A stretch of 64,000 nt of DNA from positions 3,053,001-3,117,000 of the forward strand of contig NZ_CP025791.1 of assembly GCF_002886045.1 (NCBI RefSeq). Reading direction: 5' to 3'. The notes beneath the pieces were generated by a model. The model made no database searches and had not been told where the DNA came from. It saw only the letters and a program-made list of their open reading frames with translations. The translations under genes were made by a program, and so were the position numbers. Below are positions 3,727 through 14,948 of the stretch, in pieces (the stretch's first letter is position 1; every line of letters starts with the position of its first letter). Source of the DNA: Flavivirga eckloniae. GTDB taxonomy: Bacteria; Bacteroidota; Bacteroidia; Flavobacteriales; Flavobacteriaceae.

Positions 3727-3800
3727 GGTCCCATAGCTCAGTTGGTTAGAGCACCTGACTCATAATCAGGTGGTCCTTGGTTCGAGCCCAAGTGGGACCA
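3727..3800 (+). tRNA. tRNA with CAU anticodon (Met, or Ile2 if lysidine-modified)
   Basis: A complete 74-base cloverleaf can be drawn: acceptor GGTCCCA/TGGGACC, D-stem GCTC/GAGC, anticodon stem CCTGA/TCAGG around CTCATAA (anticodon CAT), T-stem CTTGG/CCAAG with loop TTCGAGC, and discriminator A at 3800. The anticodon alone does not separate elongator Met from Ile2. No encoded CCA follows the discriminator. The 3' half, from the anticodon loop to the end, is the duplicated attachment core described at 10260 and 11857. Confidence 0.95.
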
Positions 3801-4391
3801 CTTTTAAAAATTGAGAGAAGCCTTGTGAATGTTGAGTTTACGAGGCTTTTTTATATTCAATAACCCCATATTGTAATTGTATTTTTTGTTTTTATTAAAT
3901 ATACCTGTTTATCTCATTTATACTACATAAATTTAAGCGAATTAAAAAAGAAATATTAATATCATTCATTGTTGCCCAAAGCATTGGAAATATAAATAAA
4001 GCACTCAAAAGATGAATCTCGCATGTTTTCTAAGATAAGTAATCAGAAATACAATTCTTATTTAAAGGAAATAGTAGATTTGATTAACATAGAAAACTAA
4101 CTATCCACATGGTTGGAAGAACTTTTGTAAGTACTACTTTATTATATAAATGATGAGTAAATGAATTGTTAGAACATAGTAAGTAGTACGAAAATTACCC
4201 AAGAAAGTTATGATAAAGTAGTTCAGAAAAAAATTAATTTGGAGATGAGGAGGTTGAAGGTCAGTGGGCTTTAAAATTTGCTTGTTTGAATATATTTACT
4301 AAATTAGTCGTAATTTCTTCCCTGAGAAATAATTAATGACATGCGGTCTAATTTACATTAGCCCTATTTTACTAATCCTAATTATATTAAT
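3801..4391. other. Left flank of the tRNA-linked island, no convincing gene
   Basis: AT-rich sequence between the tRNA terminator and the first small reading frame. I see only very short frames, such as a 25-codon ATG frame at 4023-4100, which I do not call. The stretch around 4313-4340 contains a quasi-palindrome (TTTCTTCCCTGAGAAA) that resembles, in inverse orientation, the AGGGAA-containing repeats at 10067 and 11984. Otherwise I see nothing. Confidence 0.4.
3819..3852 (+). terminator. Rho-independent terminator of the tRNA gene
   Basis: AAGCCTTGT and TTTACGAGGCTT form an imperfect hairpin that ends in a run of six T. It lies 18 bases after the tRNA and suits transcription termination. 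Confidence 0.6.
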
Positions 4392-4601
4392 ATGTCATTA
4401 ATTTATTATGCAAATGAAACCCTAATTTTTGAAGAAGAAGCTAAAGAGAAACTATATTCAGGCAAACTTGACAAATTTGATTTAGCATTAAAGAGAAGTG
4501 ATAATTTTCAGCTTAATGATGAAAATGAAATTTTAAATTCTATAGACAATTACTTTCAAGGATATGAACCCATTAGGACTAGTAAAACCATCGAGTATTG
4601 A
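4392..4601 (+). CDS. Small hypothetical protein (69 aa), possibly a remnant
   Basis: An ATG-initiated frame of 69 codons gives an acidic, hydrophilic product with no signal peptide or recognisable motif. Between its stop and the next gene (4602-4793) two more coding-like fragments appear in different frames: one ends in KKRFVIDKWD, another reads TPKAINQIVKKLLDAYLKNI. The whole 4392-4790 stretch may therefore be a decayed longer gene rather than an intact small one. It lies inside the tRNA-linked island, upstream of the SLATT-like operon and in the same orientation. I do not recognise a function. Confidence 0.35.
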   Translation: MSLIYYANETLIFEEEAKEKLYSGKLDKFDLALKRSDNFQLNDENEILNSIDNYFQGYEPIRTSKTIEY

Positions 4602-4793
4602 AATTCTCAAATTATACTTGTAATGCACCTGAAAATTCCTAAAAAAAGATTTGTTATTGACAAGTGGGATTAAATCATTGACTATCCATAATACTACACC
4701 TAAGGCAATTAATCAAATTGTTAAAAAATTACTGGATGCCTATTTGAAAAATATAAAAACAGACATCTTCAAAAAATCTTAAAATGATGATAT

Positions 4794-5246
4794 ATGGAAG
4801 AAGAAATAAAACTTAAAAAAGAACATTTAGAAAAGTATATTACTAAACAACTAGAGGGTTTTAAAAAAAGATCTGTATATAATAGATCGGCTTCTATAAG
4901 GCAACATGGTTTAGTTACCTTATTAGGAGCAGCAATAACAATTTTATCTGGTTTAGATATTGAATTAATTGCAGAACATACTAGGATAGTTGTTTTGATA
5001 TTAGGAGCTGCTGTAACAGTAATTGGAGCTTATAAGACTTTTTTTAACAATAAAGATTTATGGATAAAAAACACAATGATCAGTAACAAGTTGCTTAAAG
5101 TAAAGAATGATTATGAGTTCTTTATTGCAGGAAAGGAATTCGAAAATATAAAAATTGAAGATTTAGAAAAATATAAAATAGAAGTAGATAATATTTTAAA
5201 AGAAGCAAATAAGCTATGGGAAATAGCAAGACAAAATAATAATTAA
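4794..5246 (+). CDS. SLATT-like / DUF4231-like two-helix membrane protein
   Basis: The 150-residue protein has a basic, helical N-terminus with conserved-looking arginines (KKRSVYNRSASIR, residues 24-36), two membrane helices at about residues 38-54 and 64-82, and a helical C-terminal tail that starts after a tryptophan at position 90 and carries many charged residues. This layout (helix, two TM, long helix) is the SLATT superfamily pattern (SMODS and SLOG-associating 2TM effectors). In known conflict systems such proteins are proposed to form membrane pores when a partner senses infection. It is the first gene of a compact operon; the next start is 3 bases after its stop. Assignment is by topology and sequence feel, not a search. 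Alternatives are an unrelated DUF4231-type membrane protein or a small anchoring protein. Confidence 0.6.
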   Translation: MEEEIKLKKEHLEKYITKQLEGFKKRSVYNRSASIRQHGLVTLLGAAITILSGLDIELIAEHTRIVVLILGAAVTVIGAYKTFFNNKDLWIKNTMISNKLLKVKNDYEFFIAGKEFENIKIEDLEKYKIEVDNILKEANKLWEIARQNNN

Positions 5247-5249
5247 TTT

Positions 5250-6059
5250 ATGAGTAAATATTTTTCTGACGGATTGAAAGAAATAGATAAACAGGTAATA
5301 GAGGGTTTAAAGACATTGCCGCTTTCTCATAATTGTCCATTTCGACAATTACAAAGTATTTTGGATGATAAAATAATAAAGGCAAATCCCTGTAATATAT
5401 TTGAAGGAGAAGAATTGGCTTATTTTTTTTATGGAAAACCAACTTATTTTGATGATGAAGCGTTTTTGCCTGTTTTCCTTTTATTTGATTTTTTTGAAAA
5501 TGAAAATGTAGAACATAGAATAGCACCATTTGATACGGGCGCATATTTCAAAGGTCACTTAGATAAAAATAAAAAAGGCAACCTAAATGATGCTAATAAA
5601 GGGATATGTTTAAATGATTTCTGTTACGATTCCGATGTCGGTGAAGATTCCATTGATTATGGTAAAAAGATAGTTAATTATTTTTTTACTTCCAATAATC
5701 ATTACTATAGAAACCTTATTAAAAAAGGAATTAAACATTTGAGTCTTCCAAGTGCTTATTATAATAAAATTGTTTCGGGAAGATCATACACCCAATATTA
5801 CGACAGTCGATCATCTTCCATAGAGGTACAATTCAAAAAGGATTTTGACCTAACTAAGAATAAGATTATATATGCGCTGATTCCTTCAGATATAGGAGAT
5901 TTGGTTAAAACCAAATTAAAATTATTAAATCCAAATGTGAAGATAGATGTATATATGGAAGAAGAGTTTGGTTATGAAGAGCAGCACTTAAGAGACTTGT
6001 TGACTGAAGCTAAAGTTATGGTACGTAACTTTTTAGAGGTTAATGGCTATTTTAATTAA
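5250..6059 (+). CDS. Uncharacterised island protein (269 aa) with an FFYGKPTY motif
   Basis: This is the second gene of the SLATT-like operon. The soluble protein has no signal peptide or membrane segment. Residues 26-65 read like a small sensing or catalytic pocket: a histidine and FRQLQSILDDKII, then a cysteine, GEELAYFFYGKPTY and an acidic segment. I associate the phrase FFYG-x-P-x-Y with uncharacterised proteins, and the arrangement of a histidine followed by an IL-x-D-x-KI helix recalls ADP-ribosyltransferase-like folds. That is only a structural hunch. The C-terminal part (IIYALIPSDIGDL, KIDVYMEEEFG) has alternating strands and helices and acidic residues. The stop codon overlaps the next start by one base (TAATG), suggesting translational coupling. 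Function is unknown. Confidence 0.75.
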   Translation: MSKYFSDGLKEIDKQVIEGLKTLPLSHNCPFRQLQSILDDKIIKANPCNIFEGEELAYFFYGKPTYFDDEAFLPVFLLFDFFENENVEHRIAPFDTGAYFKGHLDKNKKGNLNDANKGICLNDFCYDSDVGEDSIDYGKKIVNYFFTSNNHYYRNLIKKGIKHLSLPSAYYNKIVSGRSYTQYYDSRSSSIEVQFKKDFDLTKNKIIYALIPSDIGDLVKTKLKLLNPNVKIDVYMEEEFGYEEQHLRDLLTEAKVMVRNFLEVNGYFN

Positions 6060-7084
6060 TGAGTAAGGAATATAAAATAATAGGATACTTAAGAATCTCA
6101 AAAAAGAGTGATACAGGTTTTTTAAATCCTATTTTTCAAAAAGGAGATGGAGATGAACGATATAGATGTACAGTTAAAGATTCTAAAATTTCGTCATTTA
6201 AAGAGCTTAATAATTCATTCAAAGATTATGTTAAAGAAGACGAAAAGATTGTTAAGTGTAATTTAACTCTTAGAGAGGGAGATGAAATTGTTCACTTTTT
6301 CCAAAAAGGGGAAATCTTTTTTCAAGGAAATAAAAGTTTGGTTATTAATCAATTGATAGAAAATTTTAATAGTTATATAGATGAGTTAGACGAAATTAAA
6401 AAATATAACCTTTTCAACTTTATTGGTTTTACAGCACAGGCAGATAATGAAAGAATAAGTCTAAAAAAAAGTGAAGGCATAGATATTCTTCAGAAACAAT
6501 TAAAAAAAACAGATAATTTAGATTTTGACTTATTGTCGAGGGAAACGACATCAATTTTAAAGGAAACCAAATATTCCAAGGTTTTTAGAAAATATTTAGG
6601 TTTAAAAAATATTTTCAGCGATTACAAATTAACAGTTAGAATAGGTAATAATTTGGTTAATAAAAAAGATTTAAATGCTTATTTAGATTCAGATAGTGTG
6701 GTGAAATCCCTTAACAATCGATACTCAATTGAAGCTTATGTTTTTATAAAAAAGCAATGTAGAGGAACAATAGAAGGTATAAAAGATATACCAGCTTTGA
6801 ATAAAGAAGCTCTATCTGCATCTCCTAAGATCCCTTGTTTATATAAAAATCTCCATCATAGATGGGAACTAACCGAAGAAGAGGTTCCAATTATACATAT
6901 GCTGGACTCAGTTATTGATAAGAATGACTATACAAGTAGTCCCTCAGTTTTAAATATGATATTTGAGTTTAAATTATTTATGAATGATAACTTGGAAGTT
7001 AATAGTAAAAATGAAAAACCTAATACATTAGATATAGAAGAATTAGACTCAATTATGAGTACAATCGTAAAAAACAATAAATAA
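6059..7084 (+). CDS. Uncharacterised island protein (341 aa)
   Basis: This is the third gene of the operon, overlapping its neighbours by one base on each side (TAATG at both junctions). The protein is lysine-rich and soluble, without membrane segments or a recognisable motif. The first 80 residues look like beta-strand-rich sequence (YKIIGYLRISKKS, KIVKCNLTLREGDEIVHFF); the middle is helical and charged; the last 30 residues are acidic and probably flexible. Its place between the 269-residue protein and the large helical protein, with strict coupling, suggests all three make one complex in fixed ratio. I do not recognise a family. Confidence 0.75.
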   Translation: MSKEYKIIGYLRISKKSDTGFLNPIFQKGDGDERYRCTVKDSKISSFKELNNSFKDYVKEDEKIVKCNLTLREGDEIVHFFQKGEIFFQGNKSLVINQLIENFNSYIDELDEIKKYNLFNFIGFTAQADNERISLKKSEGIDILQKQLKKTDNLDFDLLSRETTSILKETKYSKVFRKYLGLKNIFSDYKLTVRIGNNLVNKKDLNAYLDSDSVVKSLNNRYSIEAYVFIKKQCRGTIEGIKDIPALNKEALSASPKIPCLYKNLHHRWELTEEEVPIIHMLDSVIDKNDYTSSPSVLNMIFEFKLFMNDNLEVNSKNEKPNTLDIEELDSIMSTIVKNNK

Positions 7085-9465
7085 TGAAAGAATTAATTAA
7101 TGATAATCCTTTTATAAAAGATCTTAGTAAATCAGCTGTCAAGAATTTGATTATTGACAATGAGCTAAGAAAAGATAATGTTGTTATATATTTTGTTGTT
7201 GATACTTACGATATTATTGAATATTGTTTTCCTTTTCATTCGGATGGGCAGAAGGAGGAGTACGAGCTTAAAACTAAGTTGATAGCCTATGATTATCTAT
7301 TTTATGAAAATGAAAATAAACCTCTTGTACCTGATGAGTATTTAGCAGAGTTAAATTCTTTTATGTATCATCTAAAAAATAAAGCTAATAATGCTATAAA
7401 TGCATTCAAGGATATTGAAAATCTATTTAAAGAAAAAGAACAACAATTAGACTTCGATTTTTTCACAAAGAACATTACCACTTTTTTAGCAATACAGTAT
7501 GATCTGTTAAATCCGGTTTCTTTAGATAGGTATAGAGATATTTTTAGTAAAAGGTTAGATGCATTTAATATAACAGTTAAAAATAAGAATGACAGAGAAA
7601 CTTTATCTAATTTGTTTGCAGGTGTTGAAAAGTCAGATTTGACTGAAAAAATATTTGAAGATTATTATGATAATGTAAAGCTTAAATTTATTGAAAAAAA
7701 ACCTACTTCTGAGAAAATTTTTAGGCACTTAAATAACACCTATAAAGATATTGTCGTAATTGATAGATTGATCCAAATAAATAATATTTTAGAAAAAAAG
7801 CATAAGGAAAATAAACTAGAAAAAAAATATTTATTTCTTTATGTTTCGTCTACACCTTCAAAATCTAAAGTTTTATTTAAACTTCCATCTTTGCTTAGTA
7901 ATTTGCCAAACATATACAATATTGATAAATTTAATTTTTTAAGGAATGCACCACAAATTTATCTTCAAGCCATATCCAGTTTTGGTAAAGATGACAACAT
8001 AGATAGTTCCATAAAGTTTTTGAAACAGATTGTCAGAGGACAGGAGCGAATAGATAAGATACATAGTCTTGAATCCGAGGTAAATGAAAAAAATCCAGGT
8101 CTTAGAAGAAGTCTAGCTGATATGAGAGATACTACAAGAAATCAATTTGATATCATCTCTAAAATGCATAAGTTTTATGAGAATAAAGAAAGGTTGACTA
8201 AAGTAATTGAAAATTTTAAAAATAGTACCCAAGGAATTAATACAAGAGAGTTTAGGAAATTTAAAAACTATATCAGTCGAATAATTCAATCAGATACATT
8301 TAAAACAAAATCGACTCAAGTATTTGAATATCTACATCTACATACTGCTAATTCTGAATTGCAAGGGAAAATACTAGAATTAAGCCTTTCTAATGAAAAT
8401 ATTACTCCAGATTTAGGTGAAGATACTGTTAGAAGTAATTATCAGCATTTGCCTATTTTAATTTTTTACAAACAACAGAGTTTATTAAAAAAATCCTCAT
8501 GGCATGATTTATTAAAAACAATTTCTAACTACTTATCTGAGCCAGGACAGGATGAGAAAAACGAATTCATTACGTCTTATAATAATATTATTGAAAACTT
8601 AAAGAAAAAGAAGGGGTTTTCAGCAATAGAAATTTCAATTATTCTCTATTACTTGAGTTTAATACTTCCAGATCCTGACTCTAATGTAGGAAATGAAAAA
8701 CAACTAATAAGACAATTAGAAAACCTTAAAGAAGTGATAAAATATTCTTATATTAAACAGGTTTATAATCCTAAAAACGAAGAGTTTGAAGAAATATTGG
8801 CGAAAAACAAATATGAGATTGAAATAAATTATATGCTCATATGGATTTACAGGCGAAAAAAAATGTTTGATAAATCAATAGAATTAGCAAATAAGGTGCT
8901 TGAGATTTATTCTGATGAACCTAGGATAATTCATGGGAAAGCATTGTCAATTTTATCTAAAGCGTACTCCCAAGAAAGCGGATACAATATTTCAAGGTCT
9001 TTATTGAAAGCTAAGAATCTGTTAATTAAATCCCTACGTTTGTATGAATATGAAAAAGTAACCAATAATATACTTTTAAGAAAGACATTGATAGCAATAT
9101 CTAATAGTATCTGTAATTTATATAATCATTTGTATAATCATGATAAAAAAGAAGAGTATCTAGAAAATTCAAAGAAATCTTCTATAGTTTTTCTGGATAT
9201 ATTCAAGAGATATATTTCAAAACCAATAGAAGATTTTCCTGCGTTTTGTGATACCTTATGCTGGTTAAATTTAAATATTGCTGAAGCTGAATTGGATAAT
9301 TCTAACCATGATGAGGCTACGAAAAGATATACTACAGCCCAACATTATTTTGATATTTGTAAAGTGTCTAAAATTTATGACAATTTCCCTGATCAAGATT
9401 ATTTTAACAACTTAAAATCAAAGTTAAATACTGTCAAAAAAGAAGTCATAAAAAAAGATTCTTAG
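7084..9465 (+). CDS. Large island protein (793 aa), possible PIN-like N-terminus and helical repeat C-terminus
   Basis: This is the last and largest gene of the operon. The N-terminus has a hydrophobic strand followed by aspartates (IYFVVDTYDII, D40 and D43) and then PDEYLAEL with E89. Spacing and context resemble the first two acidic motifs of PIN-type nucleases, but I cannot locate a full catalytic set. The middle (about residues 120-560) is helical and highly charged, with coiled-coil-like stretches around 330-400. From about 590 to 760 there are TPR-like helical pairs (NYMLIWIYRRKKMFDKSIELA and following), a protein-interaction scaffold. No ATPase P-loop is visible. It could be the sensor or scaffold of the system, with nuclease activity in the N-terminus as a possibility only. 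Confidence 0.75.
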   Translation: MKELINDNPFIKDLSKSAVKNLIIDNELRKDNVVIYFVVDTYDIIEYCFPFHSDGQKEEYELKTKLIAYDYLFYENENKPLVPDEYLAELNSFMYHLKNKANNAINAFKDIENLFKEKEQQLDFDFFTKNITTFLAIQYDLLNPVSLDRYRDIFSKRLDAFNITVKNKNDRETLSNLFAGVEKSDLTEKIFEDYYDNVKLKFIEKKPTSEKIFRHLNNTYKDIVVIDRLIQINNILEKKHKENKLEKKYLFLYVSSTPSKSKVLFKLPSLLSNLPNIYNIDKFNFLRNAPQIYLQAISSFGKDDNIDSSIKFLKQIVRGQERIDKIHSLESEVNEKNPGLRRSLADMRDTTRNQFDIISKMHKFYENKERLTKVIENFKNSTQGINTREFRKFKNYISRIIQSDTFKTKSTQVFEYLHLHTANSELQGKILELSLSNENITPDLGEDTVRSNYQHLPILIFYKQQSLLKKSSWHDLLKTISNYLSEPGQDEKNEFITSYNNIIENLKKKKGFSAIEISIILYYLSLILPDPDSNVGNEKQLIRQLENLKEVIKYSYIKQVYNPKNEEFEEILAKNKYEIEINYMLIWIYRRKKMFDKSIELANKVLEIYSDEPRIIHGKALSILSKAYSQESGYNISRSLLKAKNLLIKSLRLYEYEKVTNNILLRKTLIAISNSICNLYNHLYNHDKKEEYLENSKKSSIVFLDIFKRYISKPIEDFPAFCDTLCWLNLNIAEAELDNSNHDEATKRYTTAQHYFDICKVSKIYDNFPDQDYFNNLKSKLNTVKKEVIKKDS

Positions 9466-10259
9466 TAAAGTCAAAAAACATTTTAGATTCTATATCTTGA
9501 TAATATTATTAATCAAATAATTAGTAAAAAGAAATTTATACATAAGTTTCCAAAAAGTAACTTCGTGAATTTTCACAAGTAAAAATAAAGAATTATTTGC
9601 TAGTTATCTCTTTTCGATTTTATCTATACTTACCAACAGATTGAACTAATGGAGTTTATATAAAACTTTACTCAATCTCCTTAAGAATGGAGTCTTTTAA
9701 TTCTTTTAGTCTTTAACGGGTTAACCTCCACTCCGCAAAGTCTCCTGACTTTGAGGTGTAAAAAACTATCAAATAAATCTAATAATAGATAACTGTCTAG
9801 GTGAATCTCTTTGCCAACAATTTATAAGATATGAGAGAGTCTAATTCTCTTTCTCTTTTTTAATTTTTGATCTAATTCCTCAATATTTTTTGAAATCCGT
9901 TTTTAAAGTGATGGATTTAGAGATTGGATTTTAAAAACGTTTTTCTGTTAAATCCGTAATTTTACTGACTTCACTTTGATTTTTTGCGTTAAATTATAAA
10001 AAATACAATTCTTCAAATTTGAATTAACAGTTTTCATAGATGTATTTTATATATTATCTAGTGCTATTAATCTGTAACTTCTTATTGAGGGAATACTCTT
10101 CTCATTAGCCGAATATGAAAAAACATTATTAGAATTTTTCAAAATATTAATTGTAATCTATTTTATATCTATAAAACAGGTTTACATTGTTATTTTCAGT
10201 GTTGGGTATATCAATGTGTTAAAATTTTAATTGTGTTAGTTTTTATGTGTTTCTATCTG
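9466..10259. other. AT-rich right arm of the inner island segment; possible structured RNA
   Basis: No credible coding frame on either strand. A less AT-rich patch at about 9690-9760 can fold: AAAGTC and GACTTT form a perfect 6-bp hairpin at about 9737-9752 inside complementary CCTC/GAGG segments. A purine/pyrimidine hairpin with a T-run follows at about 9831-9862. This could be a small RNA ending in a terminator, but no known class is recognised. An imperfect 40-base repeat (10067-10107) is shared with 11984-12022. Confidence 0.3.
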
Positions 10260-10302
10260 CTCATAATCAGATGGTCCTTGGTTTGAGCCCAAGTGGGACC
10301 AC
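10260..10302 (+). repeat. Attachment-site copy: duplicated tRNA 3' half
   Basis: The 43 bases match the tRNA from the anticodon loop through the base after the discriminator (3759-3801) with 2 mismatches by eye. The 5' half of the tRNA is absent, so it is not a gene. This is the usual footprint of an element that integrated into the tRNA 3' end, with 6.5 kb between the copies. Confidence 0.85.
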
Positions 10303-10671
10303 ATACGCGACCTCGCTAGTAATGGCGGGGTTTCGTGTTTTTATGACCTGTCATTCTTTATTCTTATTGGAAAAGTAGTAAAATTATAGGAAAATATCTC
10401 GTTTTTAAAAAGTGTTTTTAATTTCCTGTTGTTTTGTTGTAGACCTCACTAGTTCTTTCTTCAAGAGATTGCTGTTCGCGTAATTTGAAAAGGAACTGCC
10501 TGTTTTCATTCAAAACAATGATCACACATTATAGAATGAAGAATTTGTAACATTTATACACAACTTATCTTTTTTTGATATTTGATTTTCTCAGTCTTTT
10601 TTAAAATAGAATTCTCGTCAAAAAAATTAGAGTGAAGTAATAAATGTTTTTTAACGCAGTTTGGTTAGATG
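10303..10671. other. Intergenic stretch after the second att copy, with a terminator-like hairpin
   Basis: A GC-rich hairpin at 10305-10342 (ACGCGACCTCGC pairing with GGCGGGGTTTCGTGT, then five T) directly follows the tRNA fragment, just as a terminator follows the real tRNA. It probably was the tRNA terminator before the later insertion. A 14-base sequence (TTAGAGTGAAGTAA, 10627-10640) recurs at 11604-11617. I see no gene here. Confidence 0.5.
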
Positions 10672-11231
10672 TTAAGCAAATTTGAAGTATGAAAATTCAT
10701 TTTCGGACGCATATACTGACTTTTGAGCTTCAATTTTAATTCGATTTCTAAGTTCTTTTATTGATTTAAAAACTGCATAAAATAAAAAAGTTAGGGCTAA
10801 AAATGGGATTACAATATAAATCTACCCGCCAGAGTTAATTAAAAATGCTCTAGTAGCAATATGAATTACTTCGCTATTAATTTTGTTTAATCGTTCGTCG
10901 TTACATTGCTCCAGTATCTGTTTACGTTTCTCCACCTTTCTTTGAAAAGTTTTATTAGCATCATATTTTCGATGTGTAGTCCAAGTTGTATAAATAGAAA
11001 AGTAAGGCAATCTATTGATTGTTGAATTGATCGTATCTTCAAATAAATAAGTAAAAGGCAGTATCATTAACTTTTGAAGATTCTTCTCCTTTTATTCTTC
11101 GTAACTCGTCTCGAAGTGCAAATAATTTGTAACGTAACTCTAATCTATAATACGGTACTATTATTCCCTGATAGATAAAATGGAAAATTCCAAGAATGAA
11201 TGTTATTATAAATAAAATAGCTATATAGTGT
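10672..11231 (-). pseudogene. Decayed two-TM membrane protein gene (frameshift plus internal stop)
   Basis: Read on the minus strand, the first part (about 11231 to 11070) gives a hydrophobic helix followed by YRLELRYKLFALRDELRRIK but has no ATG and runs out of frame. One frame over, from 11067 to 10825, the sequence continues with LFEDTINSTINRLPYFS and a basic helix, then meets a TAG at 10822-10824. Directly after that stop the same frame reads through another hydrophobic helix (IYIVIPFLALTFLFYAVF) and ends at a TAA at 10672-10674. Joined up, this is a plausible protein of about 185 residues with N- and C-terminal membrane helices, broken by one frameshift and one nonsense codon. The pieces fit one topology, so I call it a pseudogene rather than separate small genes. 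The family is not recognised with certainty. Confidence 0.55.
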
Positions 11232-11234
11232 TAA

Positions 11235-11420
11235 TTACTTGAACGTAATTTCTTTTGTGTCGGTGGATGAAAGTTTTAAAACCATTGTAAGAAGTGTTAT
11301 TCCTATAATGTCAATAACGAACTGACCTTTTTTCATGGATGCTATGAATACATTCTGTACCGTTCCAAAAAAATTGGGTTGATTATAGCCTCGTTTGTGT
11401 TTGTTTTTTCGGTTAACCAT
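11235..11420 (-). CDS. Small membrane protein (61 aa)
   Basis: The product has a basic N-terminus, then MKKGQFVIDIIGITLLTMVLKL, and a short polar tail: a single membrane helix. It sits directly upstream of the decayed two-helix protein gene on the same strand, with 3 bases between its stop and the start of that gene's open frame, so they probably formed an operon. An internal ATG before KKGQF at residue 29 could be the real start, since the first 28 residues are unusually basic. Function unknown. Confidence 0.4.
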   Translation of the reverse strand: MVNRKNKHKRGYNQPNFFGTVQNVFIASMKKGQFVIDIIGITLLTMVLKLSSTDTKEITFK

Positions 11421-11856
11421 GTGTTAATTAGTGATTTTAATGCGACAAATGTAATATATTTCACTCAAAATCAAAATTATAATAATTTTGAATGAACAAT
11501 TCTTGTTAGAGCTTAAAATAAATAAGCGGTTTTGGTATTACTAGAAATATTGTTTTTTGGCTAATTCCCTTTTAATCATGATTGATTTTATTTGCTAAAA
11601 GTGTTAGAGTGAAGTAAAGGCGAAATCAAAGGCAATTTGTAAAATATAAATGCTGTCGCAGGTTTATATTAATAATTTTTAGTTTGTTGTTGTTTTTTAG
11701 CGGCTTCAATTTCCAGTTTTAATAAACCGGAAATCCTATCTAAAATCGGCGTGCTTTTTTCTGTTTAATATGAATTAATTATGATACCAAATATAATAAA
11801 ACCCTTTGTAAATCAACGATTTTGAATCAAGTTAATTTGTAAGAATCTGAAAATAA

Positions 11857-11899
11857 CTGACTCATAACCAGGGGGCTTGATTCGAGCCAATTAGGACCA
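11857..11899 (+). repeat. Older, degenerate attachment-site copy of the tRNA 3' half
   Basis: CTGACTCATAACCAGG followed by ATTCGAGCC and AGGACCA aligns with the tRNA from the anticodon stem to the discriminator, with a 2-3 base deletion and several substitutions. It is more diverged than the copy at 10260, consistent with an older integration. A hairpin with T-run follows at about 11910-11946. Confidence 0.7.
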
Positions 11900-11909
11900 T
11901 AGGTAAAGC

Positions 11910-11946
11910 AAGGCTTCATAGAGTTTATCTGTTTGAAGCTTTTTTA
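11910..11946 (+). terminator. Hairpin with T-run behind the degenerate att copy
   Basis: AAGGCTTCA and TGAAGCTT pair around a 15-base loop, then T5. It occupies the same relative place as the terminator behind the intact tRNA, so it is probably the original tRNA terminator displaced by insertion. Confidence 0.5.
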
Positions 11947-12142
11947 TTTGCAAACACCCCAAAATTTAACACTTTTAGCAGAATTAATCTATAACTTCTT
12001 ATCAGGGAAATACGCTCTATTAATTGTTAATTGCGACTAAAGAGATAGTATCTAATAATATACTATTTAAAGCGTTTAGGTTTATACTTTGATTTGATAA
12101 AAACCTATCTCAAATCTTTCTTTATCTTTCGAATAACGAAAT

Positions 12143-12991
12143 TTGACTTATTTTATGATTTTCTATAAACATCAAAAAGCCTTAAACCCTTTTATTTCGC
12201 ATATATTTTCAATTAGCTTTGATAGAGATGCCCAAAATAAAATAATAAATGAATTTATTTTACCTAGTGGCCATTGCTTAATGGGCTTTCAGTGTATTGG
12301 AAAATATAAAATAGTATCAGACAATAAAGAAACAACACCTCCGAAAGCTTACATCACTGGACAACAAATAAAGAGTTTTAATTTCGTGTCTTCTGATCCC
12401 GTTATAGAGGTGATTATAGTAGTTTTTAAGCCAACAGCCCTTTATCACCTATTTGGGTTAGATACAACTAAACTAATAAACAATGTTATATCTGTTGAAG
12501 AAGCTTTTATGAGTAAGCTTACAGTATTTAATAAGCATTTTGAGAATGCTAAATCTTATGAAGCCAAAATGCGCTATGTAGAAGAATTATTGTTGAAAAG
12601 GTTGGAACAAGTTGCTCCAAAACTAAATGTAATTGATATTTCAATAGACTTAATTCATAAAAACAAAGGGCGAACATCAATTAAAAGTTTGGTAACTCAA
12701 CTTAAAATTAGTGAACGTTATTTTCAAAAAAAATTTAAAAAAATTGTTGGAATCACACCATTTGCTTACACTAAAATAACACGATTTAGTTATTTATTTG
12801 CAGAGATGAGTAAAATACCTGATCAAAACTATAAAGACCTAAGTGATAATTTTGATTATTATGATATAGCACATTTTTCTAAGGATTTTAAAAAATATTG
12901 CGGAGACGCTCCTACAAAATTCAATATTGACAAATACAAATTCATTAAAAAAATAATGGTCGATGACCCTCTTATCCTAAAGATAAAATAA
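12143..12991 (+). CDS. AraC-family transcriptional regulator
   Basis: The 282-residue protein has an N-terminal beta-rich sensing domain (about residues 1-150, of the DUF6597 type common in Bacteroidetes AraC proteins) and a C-terminal AraC double helix-turn-helix. The first HTH is SIKSLVTQLKISERYFQKKF (about 186-205) followed by IVGITPFAYTKITRF; the second includes YYDIAHFSKDFKKYCGDAP (about 252-270). It sits at the island's outer edge, 265 bases upstream of the three-gene envelope cluster on the same strand, which it might control. The ligand is unknown. The ATG at 12143 could be replaced by the one at 12155; both keep the domain intact. Confidence 0.88.
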   Translation: MTYFMIFYKHQKALNPFISHIFSISFDRDAQNKIINEFILPSGHCLMGFQCIGKYKIVSDNKETTPPKAYITGQQIKSFNFVSSDPVIEVIIVVFKPTALYHLFGLDTTKLINNVISVEEAFMSKLTVFNKHFENAKSYEAKMRYVEELLLKRLEQVAPKLNVIDISIDLIHKNKGRTSIKSLVTQLKISERYFQKKFKKIVGITPFAYTKITRFSYLFAEMSKIPDQNYKDLSDNFDYYDIAHFSKDFKKYCGDAPTKFNIDKYKFIKKIMVDDPLILKIK

Positions 12992-13256
12992 TCAGAATGT
13001 TTATTTATAAAAGAAAAGACGCTTATTTACAACCACTTAGGTTTATTTACAATTACCTTTCCTCGAGTTTTTTCACAAGCACCATTTTTTATTAATATAA
13101 TCAGAATAAATGTTAATGCTCTTTTCTGCATTTACCTTTATAAAACCTATTTTTTTCGTTGTTAAAATAAATAACAAACAGTATTTAACAATTATATCAT
13201 GGTTTGGGTTATATGTATAGATTATTACGATAATCGCTAAACATAATTTTACTCGA

Positions 13257-14948
13257 ATGACAGGAAAACAATTTTGTATCCTTTTGCTAACATTCCTCTT
13301 AGGAGAATTTTGTTTAGTAGCACAGGATATTGAAAATATTAGCCAGCAAGACCCTTTTAAAATTTCGGGAACCATTGGAGCCACAGGAACCTATTTCAAT
13401 GCCGACGGACGACAAGCCAATCGAGAACCTTTTAGTTGGGTTATTTACGGAAGTCCAACAATTTCCATTTATGGTGTAGATATTCCATTTTCGTTTACTT
13501 TTAGTGAGCAGAATCGTGATTTTAGGCAACCATTTAACCAATTTGGATTGAGCCCAACCTATAAATGGGCAACGGTGCATTTAGGGCATCGTAATTTAAA
13601 ATGGTCTGAATTTGCACTTGCGGGACACAATTTTTTTGGTGGCGGATTTGAAGTAACACCAAAAAATTTTAGAATTGGAGCCGTGTACGGTCGGTTTTTA
13701 AAACCTATTGAACCAAACTCTGCAACTTCTGGAACAACCTATGATACTCCTGCGTTCAGGCGTGTTGGCAGTGCTTTTAAAGTAGGTTATGGTAGCGAAA
13801 AGAATAATGCAGACATTGTTGTTTTTCAAGCTAAAGATGATGTGAATTCTATAGATGTTACCAATGCACCACCAACTTTAACACCTCAGGAAAATGTAGT
13901 TGCTTCTATAAAAACCCATCATTTGTTTTTTGAGAAACTATCTTTTGATGCCGAATATGCACGAAGTATTTATACACCCAACACCGAAACAGTATCGGTT
14001 AATAATTTGAACGACCCAATAGTTAATACGTTTTCCTTTTTAATTGACGAACGCCAAGGTACACGAGTTGGAGATGCTATTCTGGCCACTTTGGGTTTCA
14101 AGGAAAAAACTTATGAGATTAAATTAAGATACAATCGTATCGACCCAGATTTTAAATCGTTAGGAGCCTATTTTTTTCTAACAGATTTAGAAAAAATAAC
14201 TATTGAACCTCGCGTAAAGTTTTGGAAAAACAAACTTGTTGTTGCAGGTAGTTTCGGAATTCAAAAAGATAATTTGAATGCCGTTAAGAATGCACAAACT
14301 AAGCGGAATATTTATTCGACAAATATCAACTTTACACCAATTCAGCAATACAACTTAAATGCAAATTATACGAATTATGGCATTACTCAAAAACCAGGAA
14401 CGCAACCTATAAATAATCAAATGGAAATAGCGCAAGTAAATCAACAACTAACCGTTACCCAAAACGTGAATTTATTGAGCAAGGACAATTCTATAATGCA
14501 CATGCTATTGCTCCTGTGGAATTTTCAAAATCTAACAGACGACAATAGTAATACCTCAGCGTTTTCCGAGTTTCAATCGCACATTCTTTCGCCCCGATAC
14601 ACCTTTTCATATAACCCATGGAGGTTTACTACCGGCATTGGTTATAATTATAGCATTTTTAAATTTACGACGCGAGAAACTAAGAATTTCGGACCTTCAG
14701 TAACGTTATCAAAAGCCTTTCAAAAGCCAAATATTAATCTGTCTACCACTTTCAATCATTATGAAATTGTAAATGATGGGATAAAGGATAGTAATGCTTT
14801 TACTATTAGATTTCAGGGAAAATATAGATTGACAAAAAAGCATCAATTCTCGTTACGTGGTTTTCTCAATAACGGAAACACGACAGGAATAAATCCATTA
14901 AATTATTCAGAAACTAAAATAGACTTTGGTTATGTATATACTTTTTAA
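13257..14948 (+). CDS. Outer-membrane beta-barrel protein
   Basis: The 563-residue protein begins with a Sec signal peptide (about residues 1-23, cut after LVAQ). The mature part alternates short amphipathic strands and turns (ISGTIGATGTYFNADG, WATVHLGHRNLKWS, GGGFEV), ends in an aromatic residue (DFGYVYTF) and has no cytoplasmic features, which fits a large beta-barrel. The terminal phenylalanine is typical for BamA-inserted proteins. It overlaps the next, very large gene by 23 bases, so the two are translationally linked. In flavobacteria such barrels accompany TANFOR-type surface proteins; I infer it anchors or exports the partner. The exact family is not recognised. Confidence 0.8.
   Translation: MTGKQFCILLLTFLLGEFCLVAQDIENISQQDPFKISGTIGATGTYFNADGRQANREPFSWVIYGSPTISIYGVDIPFSFTFSEQNRDFRQPFNQFGLSPTYKWATVHLGHRNLKWSEFALAGHNFFGGGFEVTPKNFRIGAVYGRFLKPIEPNSATSGTTYDTPAFRRVGSAFKVGYGSEKNNADIVVFQAKDDVNSIDVTNAPPTLTPQENVVASIKTHHLFFEKLSFDAEYARSIYTPNTETVSVNNLNDPIVNTFSFLIDERQGTRVGDAILATLGFKEKTYEIKLRYNRIDPDFKSLGAYFFLTDLEKITIEPRVKFWKNKLVVAGSFGIQKDNLNAVKNAQTKRNIYSTNINFTPIQQYNLNANYTNYGITQKPGTQPINNQMEIAQVNQQLTVTQNVNLLSKDNSIMHMLLLLWNFQNLTDDNSNTSAFSEFQSHILSPRYTFSYNPWRFTTGIGYNYSIFKFTTRETKNFGPSVTLSKAFQKPNINLSTTFNHYEIVNDGIKDSNAFTIRFQGKYRLTKKHQFSLRGFLNNGNTTGINPLNYSETKIDFGYVYTF

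Follow-up and report, generated by a model that had tools for sequence, protein, structure and literature searches.

DarTG is a system of two coupled genes in which the ADP-ribosyltransferase (ART) DarT is paired with the macrodomain antitoxin DarG; the catalytic triad of ARTs is H-Y-E. SLATT membrane proteins take part in conflict systems such as CD-NTase-SLATT and RT-SLATT, and in plants the integrated decoys of NLR proteins are copies of host proteins that have been fused into an immune regulator. TIR-SLATT and GAP1-SLATT systems are described in two studies (PMC9503650; PMC7159879), where SLATT is presented as a predicted membrane effector that responds to a nucleotide signal or to a derivative of ADP-ribose. 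The latter study also describes effector-associated domain (EAD) systems, in which a constant adaptor domain is fused to varied effectors, and mentions FGS-domain effectors (Kaur et al., 2020; PMC7159879). A further modular element is the Panacea antitoxin domain, described as one domain combined with many others, namely many toxin domains (PMC8832971). In this study, a four-gene operon of Flavivirga eckloniae was analyzed within a window of 64,000 nucleotides (contig NZ_CP025791.1, positions 3,053,001 to 3,117,000). Gene 1 of the operon encodes a SLATT protein, and the proteins of genes 2 and 3, here called A and B, belong to a conserved pair in which the C-terminal part of B differs between loci.

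Genes 2 and 3 are the core pair of the system and occur without genes 1 and 4 in most loci, so that the preliminary description of the locus, in which they were regarded as accessories, needs to be revised on this point. A gene-2 profile was searched against a collection of one genome per species (84,980 species), which gave 50 loci in bacterial genomes. The profile also found five viral contigs, and gene 2 as a single query found nine plasmid records, five of which were fetched. Repeating the scan of viral sequences with an enlarged alignment gave the same five contigs and added none. As in type II toxin-antitoxin systems, the genes are coupled and the partner is constant. A protein with the N-terminal domain of gene 3 (N-domain) follows gene 2 in 57 of the 61 loci according to the profile, and the spacing is within -45 to +20 nt in 48 of 49 measured loci, with the start codons of B placed at most 45 nt upstream of where A stops. 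None of the 577 other open reading frames (ORFs) in these loci matched the N-domain profile below an E value of 1. The link is visible by profile only, and a direct comparison of gene 3 with a single partner (P0006) gave nothing. Distances among A proteins and among B N-domains are correlated (Mantel r of 0.69 for 46 loci and of 0.49 when thinned to 38; p of 0.001), as expected for partner proteins. The pair occurs in several bacterial phyla and also on viral contigs and plasmids, and its settings are those of cargo: a tRNA repeat in the window, viral contigs amid phage-like genes (identified by eye), plasmids and a darTG locus. Metagenome-assembled genomes (MAGs) among the loci include L035, L040, L041, L042, L047, L059 and L060. 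In a search limited to the open literature no description of the pair was found; it is conserved across phyla, and its copies in the window have no convincing match in four family libraries (Pfam, PADLOC, NCBIfam and PHROGs).

The C-terminal tails of 53 B proteins fall into 26 sequence clusters. The tails that were recognized include ribosomal protein S9, DnaA, GcrA, the end of initiation factor IF-2, a cold-shock protein, the DarG C-terminal domain, RES, SNF2 and FGE, and in at least seven of the 53 compared loci the tail consists of a housekeeping protein, whole or partial. The fused copies of S9 (positions 1-121 of 121) and DnaA (all three domains) are complete, and each host that was checked has a normal copy alongside the fusion, for S9 (2/2), DnaA (1/1), GcrA (2/2) and the cold-shock protein (1/1). 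None of the records that hold the DnaA, GcrA and IF-2 fusions is labelled as a MAG. No description of S9, DnaA or IF-2 fused to a defense regulator was found in a search of the open literature.

The pair resembles several of the systems introduced above without coinciding with any of them. In common with DarTG, two genes are coupled, the conserved H, Y and E of A could match the ART triad and, in one relative of B (L041), the tail is the C-terminal domain of DarG; however, A has no DarT family match, the N-domain of B is uncharacterized and its C-terminus differs between loci. Gene 3 of the window gave no macrodomain or NADAR match, the single Pfam match (E = 0.073) being due to chance. A constant domain with varied fused partners is also found in EAD systems, and the FGE tail presumably resembles their FGS-domain effectors; in contrast to these systems, no vWA-MoxR or GTPase component was matched in the operon, and the partners include whole housekeeping proteins. 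Unlike in Panacea, A and the N-domain of B are both constant and the tail of B varies. The presence of a host-protein copy in a proposed immune regulator recalls the plant NLR integrated decoys, a likeness that is put forward for the bacterial pair as a hypothesis; we know of no homology between the two. It is conceivable, if rather doubtful, that A-B is an immune core in which a conserved regulator domain has been grafted onto copies of key proteins of the cell itself (S9, DnaA, GcrA, IF-2 end, cold-shock protein, DarG end) or onto other sensors, such that disturbance of the bait would free an NAD-using A. The operon in the window would then be the version with an unnamed bait, a SLATT effector and a protein with PIN-like and TPR parts. 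Should the tails prove to be baits or mimics of targets, the host machines that phages or toxins attack could be read from sequence alone.

The full set of four genes recurs in the same order in Tenacibaculum agarivorans (L014), with protein identities of 62, 46, 39 and 59% for genes 1 to 4, where it is flanked by a cytochrome-bd-like gene pair and an apparent peptide-modification cluster (both identified by eye). This ordered recurrence in a different setting argues that the set is a real, transferable unit. The preliminary description had proposed a defense system made up of the four genes, to be refuted if they did not co-occur elsewhere; the second copy supports the set being one unit, and the proposal is not refuted on this count. 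The dN/dS ratios between the two copies are 0.18, 0.23, 0.37 and 0.12 for genes 1 to 4 and place the genes under purifying selection, although as rough values (dS of 1.4-2.4). Among 395 genomes of the phylum, gene 3 and the gene-2 profile were each found only in that of the window, which holds no second copy of gene 3, and genes 3 and 4 gave no match in plasmid searches. The gene-4 profile was found in three of 397 genomes of the family, including that of the window. One of the two other matches is weak and partial (E = 6.8e-4); the other (L132) covers positions 6-707 of 795 and lies in a different operon, with no relative of genes 1, 2 or 3 in its 18 kb. A search of the viral contigs with the single gene-4 sequence gave nothing. 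The sparse distribution, the different setting of the T. agarivorans copy and the occurrence of gene 4 alone in L132 indicate a rare and mobile set of modular make-up.

Gene 1 matched the NCBIfam model SLATT_1 (NF033634) with a score of 60.7 bits, above the model's cut-off of 41, which agrees with its earlier reading as a SLATT-like protein; in Pfam, SLATT_fungal scored 25.8 against a cut-off of 26.5 and DUF4231 also fell just short. Two hydrophobic stretches were discerned by eye, and the protein is a putative membrane effector. A SLATT gene adjoins the A-B pair in three of the 61 loci by phmmer (the window, L014 and L040, in the last of which it lies upstream of the pair), and an NCBIfam scan of a mixed set of 64 proteins gave two SLATT_1 matches, assigned by exclusion to L014 and L040. 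SLATT is thus an optional part of the system. As in the described SLATT conflict systems, the membrane protein adjoins a putative NAD+ or nucleotide enzyme, and an NAD-using gene-2 product would fit with SLATT as an effector that responds to nucleotides or ADP-ribose derivatives; unlike in those systems, no TIR, CD-NTase, SLOG, GAP1 or reverse transcriptase match was obtained for the four proteins in the family-library scans.

Gene 2 matched no Pfam family at E <= 1 and had no convincing match in PADLOC, NCBIfam or PHROGs, and its relatives likewise gave none in Pfam or PADLOC (46 scanned) or NCBIfam (34 scanned). Across 46 aligned A rows, H27, R90, D95, D185, R187 and E192 are invariant (46/46 for H27 and E192) and Y58 is present in 45; this alignment leaves aside plasmid rows and near-duplicates (L029, L052, L062) as well as A genes that were missed, cut short or atypical (L025, L044, L054, L055, L057, L058, L063). 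The arrangement of H27, Y58 and E192 may correspond to the H-Y-E triad of ARTs. When the A profile was compared with a DarT profile (18 sequences, from 30 returned loci), the best local match spanned 41 columns and placed the E192 motif opposite the DarT glutamate motif, in which we take the glutamate to be catalytic. The score of 20.96 was equalled or exceeded by two of 200 column shuffles and was above those of five further comparisons (10.4-17.5), of which that with S9 used a single sequence. These motifs and the weak profile match are suggestive of a putative DarT-like ART.

The operon is tentatively regarded as a horizontally moving defense module of the abortive-infection type built on the conserved two-gene core. 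A would probably be an ART-like enzyme that spends NAD+, and B its dedicated regulator, with an N-domain that would bind and restrain A and an interchangeable C-terminal part that would serve as a bait or sensor setting the release of A. During infection the bait would be perturbed and A freed, whereupon NAD+ would be spent or targets modified. The SLATT protein would be a further effector, one that plausibly responds to an ADP-ribose-type product of A or to a modification made by A, and would open the membrane such that the cell halts before the phage matures. Gene 4 may supply a sensor-scaffold or an RNase arm.

A number of points weigh against this interpretation. The profile comparison gave the match between A and DarT a probability of 1.5%, over 41 columns only, and in a forced global alignment the histidines were left unpaired. 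Pfam scans of the 46 A relatives returned seven families at E <= 0.1, each in one member and none of them an ART; the DarT model PF14487 had no match in the genome of the window, a PDB sequence search with A gave no match and A was matched in none of 50,697 phage records. The correlation between A and B distances would arise from mere linkage too. Since SLATT stands beside three of 61 A-B loci, it is not an obligatory partner of A, and just two genomes are known to carry all four genes. The C-terminus of gene 3 in the window matched nothing in Pfam, PADLOC, NCBIfam, PHROGs or PDB, so its bait cannot be named, and the PIN-like reading of the N-terminal part of gene 4 was made by eye.

Other explanations of the tails were also considered. 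The five tails counted as housekeeping (S9, DnaA, GcrA, cold-shock protein and IF-2) are all information-processing proteins, and in all hosts tested a normal copy of S9, DnaA, GcrA or the cold-shock protein is present beside the fused one. Both observations would suit a toxin-antitoxin pair in which the N-domain of B neutralizes A and the tail copies or mimics the target of A as a pseudo-substrate, so that each fusion would name a target: the ribosome (S9), initiation (IF-2 end and cold-shock protein), replication (DnaA), transcription (GcrA) or DNA (DarG end). The DarG C-terminal domain is, according to the title of a study cited in PMC12170906, a single-stranded DNA mimic that inhibits DarT, in line with such a role. 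This explanation is considered unlikely.

Fused S9 and DnaA keep their full domains, and fused and native DnaA of L016 differ with a dN/dS of 0.25 (dS of 0.28). The tail could accordingly be read as a delivery handle that would put A on a machine (the ribosome, RNA polymerase, the origin or nucleic acid) to modify its neighbors, and several of the recognized tail families do bind nucleic acid or nucleoprotein machines. However, FGE, RES and the A-like domain that forms the tail in L050 do not fit, and no substrate is known; we give this explanation little credence.

Some loci give the appearance that A-B has inserted next to the gene to which it is fused. In L016 the order is dnaA, A and B with the DnaA tail, then dnaN and gyrB (the last two identified by eye). 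The module of L041 seems to split darG, with the end of a DarT-like gene (identified by eye), the macrodomain, a stop, A, the N-domain of B and a C-terminal domain that matched that of DarG (7yk3_B) at E = 2e-26, and in L035 (4400-7785) the next gene downstream is a paralogue of the B tail (E = 2.5e-34). Such loci would favor a selfish addiction element in which in-frame fusion on insertion captures neighboring genes, the tails being passengers with no immune role. Against this, no infB-like ORF was seen by eye within about 2-3 kb on each side of the IF-2 fusion, the native S9 genes are on contigs other than those of the S9 fusions and, apart from FGE, no metabolic enzyme was recognized among the tails; a selfish element with passenger tails is given slightly less credence than a delivery handle. 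Judging from L016, L041 and L035 on the one hand and from the IF-2 and S9 fusions on the other, the module appears to take up genes on the spot as well as to bring such copies to other sites. Finally, the lack of convincing family matches for genes 2-4 and the weak ART evidence would agree with gene 2 not being an ART-type enzyme and the operon being a complex for stress or at the membrane that has no connection with phage, but the mobile settings, the SLATT protein and the sporadic distribution (1/395 phylum genomes for both gene 3 and the A profile) make this the least probable explanation.

The operon and its surroundings in the window are listed in Table 1. Genes 1 and 2 are separated by 3 nt, and genes 2 and 3 and genes 3 and 4 overlap by 1 nt at TAATG. 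Measured in 1-kb windows, the GC content falls from 32-39% in the first 4 kb to 25-28% between 4 and 10 kb, is 28-29% between 10 and 13 kb and returns to 33-35% between 13 and 18 kb. The operon is inside a 6.5-kb segment between two copies of a 43-nt repeat of the tRNA end, and the continuous DNA match of 11 other genomes of the genus to the window stops at 3801-3854, at or just past the tRNA. The tight junctions, the AT-richness relative to the surroundings and the tRNA-linked island of the preliminary description were all recovered at the coordinates first given, and genes 2-4, described there as lacking a recognized function, had no convincing match to a metabolic or plasmid family in the four libraries. 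Past the tRNA, the congeners match only in short stretches, at 9759-9812 (three genomes), 10023-10207 (one) and 11857-11985 (two), and at the tRNA repeat. None of the four proteins was found in the stretches downstream of the tRNA in the 11 genomes, ten of which extend at least 16 kb and one of which stops about 200 nt past the tRNA. Because the sequence at about 11857-11985 resembles sequence located at the tRNA or close to it in two congeners (L146, L150), a second insertion may occupy 10303-11856. Besides the operon, the only ORFs of at least 60 aa between the repeats are one of 69 aa and an antisense one of 98 aa, so no integrase of normal size is present there. The 69-aa ORF is probably outside the four-gene unit, and no counterpart was seen among the ORFs listed for L014. 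A promoter scan did not outperform shuffles (48 found, 42.3 expected).

Table 1. Coordinates of the operon, of the surrounding island and of B proteins with recognized tails; positions are those of the window unless a locus is named.
Feature	Position	Strand	Description
Gene 1	4794..5246	+	150 aa, SLATT_1 protein
Gene 2 (A)	5250..6059	+	269 aa, unnamed family
Gene 3 (B)	6059..7084	+	341 aa, conserved N-domain and C-terminal part of uncharacterized type
N-domain of gene 3 (B)	6059..6322	+	Matched residues 1-88
Gene 4	7084..9465	+	793 aa, N-terminal PIN-like part (by eye), weak TPR signal
69-aa ORF	4392..4601	+	Between tRNA and operon, no convincing family match
tRNA-Met (CAT)	3727..3801	+	3' end is the presumed attachment site
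Left 43-nt direct repeat	3759..3801	+	tRNA 3' end, presumed attL
Right 43-nt direct repeat	10260..10302	+	Presumed attR, 95% identical to left copy
Probable island	3802..11886		Right end uncertain
S9-tailed B	L042:3926-4705 and L047:7719-8498		Complete S9; in two Clostridia-like MAGs with a further, normal S9
A-B module with DnaA-tailed B	L016:5428-9510		A-B between dnaA and a dnaN-like gene; second full DnaA
IF-2-tailed B	L039:7774-8505		IF-2 C-terminal domain
darTG locus with DarG-tailed B	L041:5700-8883		darTG locus apparently interrupted by A-B module

The same tRNA-Met site holds, by eye, a type I restriction-modification cluster in one congener (L151) and, in another (L153), a large ORF resembling ThiF together with an integrase-like one. 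This by-eye reading of their cargo would fit with the site being a hot spot that is able to hold defense genes.

Further tails of B were observed. In L050 (7725-8990) the tail is the second A-like domain mentioned above, with a tyrosine (assigned by eye) in place of the invariant histidine. Eight loci (L004, L017, L018, L020, L028, L033, L038 and L051) have long tails of about 470-650 aa that are linked by similarity in at least one stretch; these gave no PADLOC match, and by eye their end is like an Mrr-type domain. A by-eye reading of the B class of 600 to 780 aa as FtsZ-like was rejected: the Tubulin family was matched in nine places in eight genomes, none of them a B protein, and a profile comparison with FtsZ from six of the nine loci gave a probability of 0.2%. 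PDC-S34, a name not found in the open literature, was matched by four of 50 B proteins, and the one match that was located (L012) covers the last quarter of this candidate-defense model only. In the NCBIfam scan of the mixed set of 64 proteins, single members matched the type III Thoeris protein ThcB4 (E = 4.4e-5) and a tRNA-binding protein (E = 3.8e-4). A PDB search with B gave no usable relative. In L025 (5493-7855), A is joined to pentapeptide repeats and overlaps a TIR-like gene, and B was not found.

For gene 4, scans of Pfam, PADLOC, NCBIfam and PHROGs yielded no convincing family. Acidic residues in the order D-E-D with S/T form the PIN motif, and D40, E85, E89, D227 and S255-S256 of gene 4 are conserved in three homologues, which by eye looks PIN-like; no PIN match at E <= 1 was obtained in Pfam or NCBIfam. 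A weak TPR signal is present at about residues 559-627 (TPR_12, E = 0.0037; MamA, E = 0.0035; both under the cut-off). A PDB match to centrin (E = 0.0039) was taken as chance, leaving no usable relative there. In L132 (reverse strand, about 7065-13950), the gene-4 homologue is accompanied by a metallo-beta-lactamase-like gene and by unrecognized genes, as read by eye.

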